The notes under the pieces: model-generated
Databases searched by the model: none
Told to the model about the DNA's origin: nothing
Seen by the model: the letters and a program-made list of their open reading frames with translations, nothing else
DNA from: Brasenia schreberi
Lineage: Eukaryota; Streptophyta; Magnoliopsida; Nymphaeales; Cabombaceae
NCBI GenBank assembly: GCA_036023115.1
Contig: JAYKKT010000073.1
Coordinates: 14,261,001 to 14,325,000, forward strand
DNA: 64,000 nucleotides
Reading direction: 5' to 3'
Position numbers and translations under genes: made by a program
Shown here: positions 22,801-25,800 of the stretch, one piece after another
How the letters are laid out: the number at the start of each line of letters is the position of its first letter
Numbering within the stretch: position 1 is the stretch's first letter

Positions 22801-25800
22801 AGGCTGGGTCTTGGTTTTGGTTATTTAAGTTGAAGACTTCATCACCCAGTTTGAACAATGAGTATGAACTAGGGGTACATGAACCATTTAGATATAGAAC
22901 ATTCTTAGAAAAATACAAATTAAAAAACTTGAAAAGTACACATTAGAAAATCTTGAATGTTTTGTCTATATTTCAAAAGGATGTACAACTCAACCCATCT
23001 GAGGTAGTCAACAGTCAGGAGATGCAACATTTCTAGCATGAATGCATTGGATCTCATCCAAACTCCTAAGTTAAGCATGGCTGGGCAAGAACAGTACTAA
23101 GATGGGTGGCCTCCTAGAAGGTCTCCATGTTGGACCCTTTAGCCAACCCCACCTAATGTGGGAAGAGGCTTAGGTAAAGTAAGGTATTTCAAAAGGATGT
23201 AGACAGAACATAAGCAAGAGACTGTACTTGGAAAAAACCAATTAAATGAAGACAAAAACAGAAGCTTGAACGAAGTTGCATGTTAGTAGACGGTCAATTT
23301 TGTACTACGACAGAAACTGCTTGCAGCTTACTAAAAGCACACCTTTGATTAGCCAAACTGTAATTCAACGGGGGATGGCCCTGAATGACTCCATGGTTAA
23401 ATCTGCCAATTCCTGTGCCAGCATTTGCAGGACCAGGCACATGGCCAAGATGCATACAGCTAGCAACTCCAGAACATAACGAACTCACATCGGCATTGTT
23501 TTCTTCCAACAGAAGATCATCACTGAAAGAAAGACAAAGAAGTTCCAAAATTAGAAAATCAAAATCCTAACAAACAGGCTGCCATGTGTAGATAACGTGC
23601 AATTTGTGTGGGGCACCACTTTGACATTATATTGTCCATTTCATATTAACAACAATAAAATAGCAAAATATTTTGCAATAACGCATGCTTCAAGCATAAT
23701 TTGATGAAAGAAAAAGCACTGCCAGAATTTAATGGAGAATTTTGTTTCATTAAATATTTTGAGAAATACCAGATGAAACTATTGTCCATCAAGGCCTGCA
23801 AATAGGCTTCAATCTTTGTTCTAAGCAGTATCTATACCTGCGGCACACCATACCAGCCCTTGGTTTGCAGGTATTGGTGTGACCGTATGAGGAGCTAGAT
23901 GGTACTGAGAGAGGCATAGGAAGCCCACAAAAATATCGGAAGGAGTCGATAAAACATTATTTTGCTTTTCATAGTTAAATGTTAACATGACACAAGAGAA
24001 AGAACAATGATGAATAAGAATTTATATAGCTAACCTCTCTTAGCGTCAAAACCACAAGGTTTTGATTTTGGTATGCCAAAACCACCATGATATTTATCTT
24101 AACATCACATATTTCATTTTAATAAAAATCATGTATCTAAGTAAAAATCATATATCTTATAGGTCACTCAGCGATGAACTGCACAGCAAACATGTTGTTC
24201 GCTGTATTTCTTTTTTTAAGTAAAGATGGAAGAACGGGCCAATACCCCACCTTTTTGGTTGGGTATTGGTCCTTCAACGACTCGTATACACTGACATCAA
24301 ATATTATCCATTGGTAGATGGAGCTTCGACAGCAGCTAGGTCTAGAGGGAAGTTGTGAGCATTACGTTCATGCATAACTTCCATACCAAGGTTAGCACGA
24401 TTAATGATATCAGCATTAAATATGTGATTACTGTAAGCACAATTTTGAGAATTTCCACACCTCTTACCCTGAATGCACAACTATACTTCTACCTGTAACA
24501 TGAACAAGCTAAGTCACACAGACACTTCTAAGGGGTGGAGTGTCGACCCCGACACTGGTGCGACACCGACACCGTGTCGGTGCGGCATGTCCCAAAAAAA
24601 AATTTGCAATTTTTTTTTTTTGTAACTCACGAATAAATGGATCCGGATAATGAAGATTGATTTGTGTATTATGATGAAATTAGTAGTTGTTTACCATTTA
24701 TATGTTTTGCTTTAATATAAAGTTGTGTACTTACTATTGTAGCTTTATACAATATAAAGATGCTTGAATGATTTTGGGTGCGAACAATTGGACTCCATAC
24801 TGTATGCCTTTGCACAGAATAATCTCTGTCACCAAACACATTTAAAGACCAGGAACATTGTCAGATCAATAGAACAGAAGAGTATTGCATCACTAGTGGA
24901 TCCTAGCACAAATACTAGTATATGTTATATCCTACAAAAGATCTCGAAACTCTTTGAATCCATAACTTGGATATTTTGCAGCTCGTAAAATCATTGTAAG
25001 TTTCAGATCATTATGTGGGAACTTGCTAATTGATACCTACGTGCACCCAAAATTAGCAAATACTAGTTGTATTATGATTGATTTATGTAGCTTGAATATT
25101 ATATATAATATATAATATTATATACCTTAGCCGTGTCGCCGCACCCAAAATTTTTGAAATTTGCCGTATCCCGCACCCACACCCATGTTACATAGTGAAC
25201 AAGTGAAATAACAAAATAACACTACATGGCAATGATATAAAGAACGAGCATCTGGGAGAAGATATATGTTCACGTAGAAAATGTTGGACTAATAGTATAC
25301 AACTTGTCTGGTTATGCTGATCTTGTGTCACTACCCTCTCAAAATAAAATATTTTCTGCTGACAACTATATCGTTTGGAAATTCCAAACGCACCCAGAAA
25401 CAGAATCAAGTAACCATGACTAGAAGGAATCAAGGGAAGAATCACGCTGTCACTGTTTTCACAGCCTAACAGATGATTATACATGAATTGATCAGTAACT
25501 ATGGCTTAGTAGTAGTATGGTTCTCAGATCTTAACCAACATGACAGCCACATAAGTACCTGTAGTTGGGATCCCAGTCCCCTGGATCAGGTACTGATGAA
25601 CTGCACTCAGGTTTATCATAGGATGTCTGCATGGAAGAAGGATCTAAGCCATGCAAATGGAGTGCAGAAACTGAAGAAGCTTCATTGCTTGATGACAAGG
25701 ATGCAGAAAGAGAGCCACTCCCTGCCCTTTGATGTGGCAAGCATGGATGGCTGGAAGTTAAATGCATGCTATAGGAAGAGCCTATGTTTACTCGAGGTTT

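Follow-up and report, generated by a model that had tools for sequence, protein, structure and literature searches.

The 64,000-nucleotide stretch of Brasenia schreberi DNA analysed here (contig JAYKKT010000073.1; hereafter the window) contains a 199-bp insert that combines a 5S rRNA-like body with a LINE-type tail, and the analysis confirmed this observation. We consider it likely, with a probability of roughly three in four, that the insert is a copy of a SINE3-like family of 5S-headed, RTE-tailed SINEs mobilised by an RTE LINE. Its parts, all on the plus strand of the window, are the following:

22969 to 22985, plus strand: 5' target-site duplication (TSD) of 17 bp, starting with TA, with TTTT at 22960-22963 directly upstream
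22986 to 23019, plus strand: leader of 34 bases, preceding the 5S +1 position
23020 to 23138, plus strand: full-length 5S rRNA-like body, matching Rfam RF00001 and the Arabidopsis 5S sequence
23139 to 23184, plus strand: RTE-LINE-like 3' tail of 46 bases, recognised by the LINE-tail profile and a predicted hairpin
23185 to 23201, plus strand: 3' TSD, of the same sequence as the 5' copy

The two TSD copies, TATTTCAAAAGGATGTA at 22969-22985 and 23185-23201, are identical at 17 of 17 positions and enclose exactly 199 bp, as the preliminary description of this DNA had stated; shortness combined with a single long duplication is a trait of SINEs. The element starts with CAAC and ends with AAGG, and no TTTT is present anywhere in the 199 bp, the next one downstream standing at 23298. 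The three-part layout proposed earlier also stands, except that the lengths then given for leader, body and tail (32, 120 and 47 bases) have to be replaced by 34, 119 and 46 according to the borders found here.

A second SINE trait, a head derived from a pol III RNA, is provided by the body. At 23020-23138 it matches RF00001 with 48.4 bits, above the gathering score of 38 (E 5.3e-7 in Rfam), and the match spans model positions 1-120 of 120, in keeping with its former designation as a full-length 5S relative. The Arabidopsis 5S sequence alone finds it by nhmmer with an E value of 2.8e-16 in the 64-kb window. Compared to this reference, from which the host's own 5S may differ, 33 of 120 sites are changed. 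Identity amounts to 39/48 in the internal control region and 48/72 elsewhere, so that stronger conservation of the control region is a trend only (Fisher P 0.06). A check of the promoter boxes had been proposed, and the A box, the intermediate element (IE) and the C box of the internal 5S promoter all appear to be retained, a trait of SINE3 elements, being identical to Arabidopsis at 12/15, 4/6 and 15/18 positions, respectively. RNA structure is not evidently kept, since the 5S bodies fold no better than shuffled sequences (z 0.33, with 122/200 shuffles as good, for this copy; z 0.75, 154/200, for a second 5S-like copy described below). A 5S gene or tandem array was considered and rejected: with E below 1, Arabidopsis 5S matches exactly two places in the 64 kb, namely these two copies, and both are diverged.

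The leader is more difficult to account for. A type-1 pol III gene begins transcription at 5S +1; with a 5S-type promoter the start would be expected at 23020, and the presence of 34 further bases inside the duplication is hence a puzzle. The leader contains CCCATCT, which is complementary to AGATGGG of the C box. A leader stretch, ACCCATCTGAG (22993-23003), and the C-box stretch CTAAGATGGGT (23097-23107) show 91% complementarity, which may be due to chance. The best other match of the leader in the window reaches only E 1.6.

Cassandra is likewise a plant retroelement using a 5S promoter, and has been described as an LTR element with paired LTRs, a Met primer-binding site (PBS) and a PPT (PMC10853983); its LTRs carry a 5S-like core in their middle and are found across land plants (PMC10853983, PMC10886601). 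That the present insert is a solo LTR or another fragment of this TRIM is nonetheless extremely improbable. The solo LTR was rejected on its termini, which are CAAC and AAGG and not TG and CA, on the 17-bp TSD, and on the lack of an LTR partner or a nearby PBS at this locus. In particular, no direct repeat of at least 25 bp occurs within 20500-25500, and the closest of five matches to the Met-type PBS motif (up to two mismatches allowed) is some 8.9 kb distant, at 14026-14037. The tail, moreover, is of LINE type. Cassandra duplications measure 5 bp.

The tail connects the element to a TTG-ended LINE family in the window, three copies of which are the following:

10196 to 12495, plus strand (5' border provisional): broken copy of an RTE-type LINE with a TTG tail and with endonuclease-like and reverse transcriptase pieces
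43086 to 45135, minus strand: LINE copy of 2 kb with an exact 15-bp duplication
47367 to 47445, plus strand: LINE insertion consisting only of the 34-base tail hairpin and TTG repeats, with an exact 16-bp duplication

A profile seeded with nine tails of this LINE, from which the element was left out, matches the element tail at 23136-23173, directly after the 5S end, with an E value of 8.7e-7 in the 64-kb window. Eleven LINE tails are detected by the same profile at E < 1e-3 (12429 and 12455 being counted as one element), nine of them the seeds and two (50069 and 12455) new, a total that agrees with the eleven copies of the TTG LINE counted in the preliminary description. Its further claim that the 3' end of the insert aligns with that of the LINE is upheld by the LINE-only profile, but with two qualifications: the element tail reaches 79-82% identity with those seven LINE tails that it matches over 34 bases, and it ends in GGTAAAGTAAGG where the LINEs carry TTG repeats, having no TTG tract itself. 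A 3' end common with a partner LINE, the third SINE trait, is seen in the profile match and in the same predicted fold. The TTG LINE of the window is related to the donor of the tail, and not demonstrably that donor itself.

The LINE is provisionally placed in the RTE clade on account of its TTG tail, since (TTG)n or (TTGATG)n is given as the 3' terminus of RTE-clade LINEs in flowering plants (PMC3747384). A LINE reading frame has 1300 protein matches; within the best 120, those that name an organism all come from flowering plants, except for one labelled Vibrio. In the copy at 10196-12495, the reverse transcriptase match (E 1.5e-8) lies over the Pfam cut-off and the endonuclease match is weak (E 0.0064) and under it; this LINE is a candidate for the type of machinery that would have mobilised the element. 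Exact TSDs of 15, 21, 16, 16 and 17 bp are present at five of 13 LINE tail sites, although the one at 32846 may take in three bases of the TTG tail, and the remaining eight sites show matches of 9-12 bp or none. The 17-bp TSD of the element falls within this 15-21 bp range. The hairpin plus repeat at 47367-47445 is the smallest unit seen inserting with a long duplication, and hairpin plus TTG repeat is perhaps the smallest unit that the RTE machinery inserts. Two further LINE sequences in the window are unusual in form: a very short tail match of 38 bases at 20969-21037 (minus strand) has a TTTGTTG variant end and the octamer ATGCGCTT on either side, and the copy at 12429-12482 (plus strand) has part of its tail start repeated in tandem (AACCCCATCTAGT twice).

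Plant RTE LINEs and their SINEs have been associated by Nakatsuka and Ohshima (PMC13295347) with a "Tn-TA" signature, in which a stretch of T precedes by about 10 bases a TSD that starts with T and then A. The insertion site of the element, tgTTTTgtcta/TATTTC, has its T-run 6-9 nt upstream of a TA-starting TSD and fits this signature. As a background, a TA start that has TTTT at a distance of 5-14 bases upstream is present at only 0.6% of all positions in the window; this distance range was chosen after the element had been seen. Among the five LINEs with duplications, one shows the signature as printed and two do so after an ambiguous border is shifted by one to three bases; two of the five do not fit it.

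When the element tail and one LINE tail were folded, the same two-stem hairpin was predicted for both, with an outer AGCC/GGCU stem in each and an inner stem of CCCAC/GUGGG in the element and CCCGU/AUGGG in the LINE. These folds are not exceptionally stable (z -0.69 and 47/200 shuffles as good for the element; z -1.64 and 11/200 for the LINE). Over 10 distinct tails, 96% of the inner-stem cells are paired, a value that falls to 60% or less once the partner is slid, and one stem pair is changed on both sides across the tails (C-G for U-A). This covariation in the predicted hairpin is suggestive only, its measures being reached by 88 of 500 shuffles. A decayed LINE tail is also found about 160 bp upstream of the element, at 22772-22810 (plus strand), with an E value of 1.2e-7 by a profile that had it among its seeds and of 0.061 by the LINE-only profile.

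Head, tail and duplication could in principle have been brought together only once. The reverse transcriptase of a LINE might have switched from the LINE 3' end to 5S RNA, producing a fusion that never propagated; the same head-tail junction and the same TSD would result, and a further template switch could account for the unmatched leader. Chimeras of mammalian LINE-1 insertions with non-coding RNAs have indeed been mentioned (PMC13174262). We nevertheless regard such an origin as unlikely. A chimera whose 17-bp TSD is still intact should have kept a near-perfect 5S sequence, yet 33 of 120 sites differ, and it should carry the current LINE tail with its TTG repeats, yet the tail is only 79-82% identical and lacks them. 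If the body had been ordinary 5S when it inserted, a TSD mismatch of about 45% would be expected. The probability of observing none in 17 positions is then 4e-5 or, with a rate estimated without CpG and CHG sites, 2.6e-4; the test assumes equal rates and a Jukes-Cantor model, with Arabidopsis 5S as a stand-in. Because the 33 body changes stand beside an entirely intact TSD, the divergence of the body probably predates the insertion, the parent being already diverged as in a replicating element. A variant in which the switch was made to the transcript of an already diverged 5S pseudogene is possible. This pre-insertion divergence, together with the same changed bases in a second copy, favours a propagating family over a one-off chimera.

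That second copy, which the preliminary description does not mention, is located some way downstream in the window, on the opposite strand:

52100 to 52214, minus strand: second, older 5S-like copy, matching Arabidopsis 5S and having changes in common with the first copy
52051 to 52099, minus strand: tail belonging to this second copy, a weak match

The window holds two 5S-like places, the second of which is decayed. Arabidopsis 5S alone matches it at 52206-52102 (minus strand) over model positions 9-117 with E 2.2e-9; in Rfam it is not listed up to E 1. Alignment of the whole element to it scores 115.8, the maximum of 500 shuffles being 77.6. At 13 sites both copies depart from Arabidopsis, and at 11 of these they agree with each other in the base (permutation P 0.013); nine same-base sites remain outside CpG (P 0.007). 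Some of the common bases could instead reflect how the host's own 5S departs from that of Arabidopsis. The tail of the second copy resembles that of the element weakly, with a score reached by 15 of 2000 shuffles and by 1.2% of 5560 window stretches. No LTR-sized repeats are found near this copy, only direct repeats of 22-26 nt. An apparent leader homology between the two copies in one alignment was rejected, 897 of 2000 shuffles being as good, and a 10-bp near-repeat (9/10) beside the second copy was not accepted as a TSD since it sits within the 5S match.

The two copies may also be unrelated, the first being a SINE or a chimera and the second an independent, tailless 5S retropseudogene, a reading compatible with either a SINE family or a one-off fusion. 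We hold this to be rather doubtful, if a possibility of some weight. It agrees with the failure to find a TSD around the second copy or a match to the leader, and with its tail, which is absent from the matches of both tail profiles and, when scored against that of the LINE, does not reach significance by itself, 7.9% of the 5560 window stretches scoring as high (a background that still included the LINE tails and the element). The common non-5S bases and the shuffle result for the tail against the element argue for relatedness. The overall claim made from the outset, that this plant has or had a 5S-derived SINE mobilised by its RTE LINE, is partly supported. Composition, duplication, LINE-type tail, insertion site, predicted fold, the probable divergence of the body before insertion and the existence of a second 5S-like copy all speak in its favour; the leader unmatched in the second copy and a TTG LINE that is not demonstrably the donor do not.

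For a SINE family mobilised in this way, the following cycle can be envisaged. The promoter boxes of the 5S body (A box, IE and C box) would recruit TFIIIA and TFIIIC for the synthesis of a short RNA by pol III, which presumably reads through the tail since no TTTT interrupts the 199 bp. The 3' hairpin, the predicted fold of which is common to element and LINE, could then be recognised by the LINE reverse transcriptase, and the LINE endonuclease may have nicked the target at the TA downstream of the T-run observed at this site. Target-primed reverse transcription would leave a duplication of 15-21 bp, such as the one that flanks the element. The family would have diverged from 5S rRNA before this insertion and would thus have replicated as an element itself. 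A search for the 5S-tail junction in viral_contigs and genome_contigs (viral, bacterial and archaeal sequences, where little plant DNA is expected) gave no match, nor did the LINE tail in viral_contigs; these negative results say little about a plant repeat.

The surroundings of the element include further gene-like and mobile sequences. Exon-like pieces are present at 17617-45635 (minus strand), and one of them matches a protein kinase weakly (E 3.8e-6, under the Pfam cut-off). They resemble a YAK1/DYRK-type kinase gene, so that the SINE may lie antisense in an intron of it. Pieces of a Copia-type polyprotein are present at 38202-41360 (plus strand; Pol_BBD, gag_pre-integrs and RVT_2), and a Met-type PBS motif without mismatches precedes them at 35383. 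DUF659, a domain of hAT-type transposase relatives, is matched at 8733-9095 (plus strand, E 4.3e-22). A match to the plastid psbA 3'UTR at 24233-24329 (minus strand; RF04342, 63.9 bits) is probably a nuclear plastid insertion; like the flowering-plant proteins matched by the LINE reading frame, it points to a plant host.

Among described elements, the closest in design is Ped-1 of the springhare, a SINE with a 5S rRNA promoter and a BovB tail (PMC3747384). Both join a 5S promoter head to the tail of an RTE-clade LINE, a likeness in the parts as described; Ped-1, however, lives in an animal, whereas the present element, with its 34-base leader, resides in a plant. In plants, the TS SINE of tobacco is paired with RTE-1_STu (PMC3747384) and so resembles the present element in having a 3' end common with an RTE LINE, but TS is tRNA-headed and ends in (TTG)n (PMC9033089), in contrast to a 5S head without a TTG tract. 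SINE3 and other 5S-headed SINEs are known from vertebrates and Lepidoptera (PMC10886601, PMC3747384) and share the 5S-derived pol III head, whereas the tails listed are CR1-type for AmnSINE1/SINE3 and RSg-1 for OS-SINE1 (PMC3747384). A 5S-headed SINE has also been described in a fungus (PMC5063351).

For plants, a 2022 review derives SINEs from tRNAs, and also describes angiosperm Angio-domain SINEs with a 37-bp 3' Angio-domain (PMC9033089). AnnoSINE screens SINE heads against tRNA, 7SL and 5S, and no plant 5S SINE is named in the passage concerned (PMC8825457). In potato, 9 of 688 unidentified repeat families match Rfam non-coding RNAs, 5S rRNA included (PMC4524691); the 5S-matching repeat may represent Cassandra, rDNA or a 5S SINE. 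Searching the open-access literature (titles and abstract openings, most subscription journals lying outside) for a plant 5S SINE gave none among the matches listed. Kojima (PMC10886601) cites the idea that Cassandra arose by insertion of a SINE3 into an LTR. This idea requires a plant 5S SINE as source, and the present element would be a sequence of the kind needed. It is a long shot that plants carry an old, SINE3-like superfamily of their own, 5S-headed and RTE-mobilised, and that Cassandra owes its 5S promoter to the insertion of such an element into an LTR.

The design of a 5S-headed SINE is known in animals and in a fungus, and no plant example stood among the literature matches listed. 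If our interpretation is true, the combination of a 5S head with an RTE tail would have arisen at least twice (compare the springhare Ped-1), and the element in Brasenia would offer a concrete sequence for testing the proposal that Cassandra obtained its 5S promoter from a SINE.
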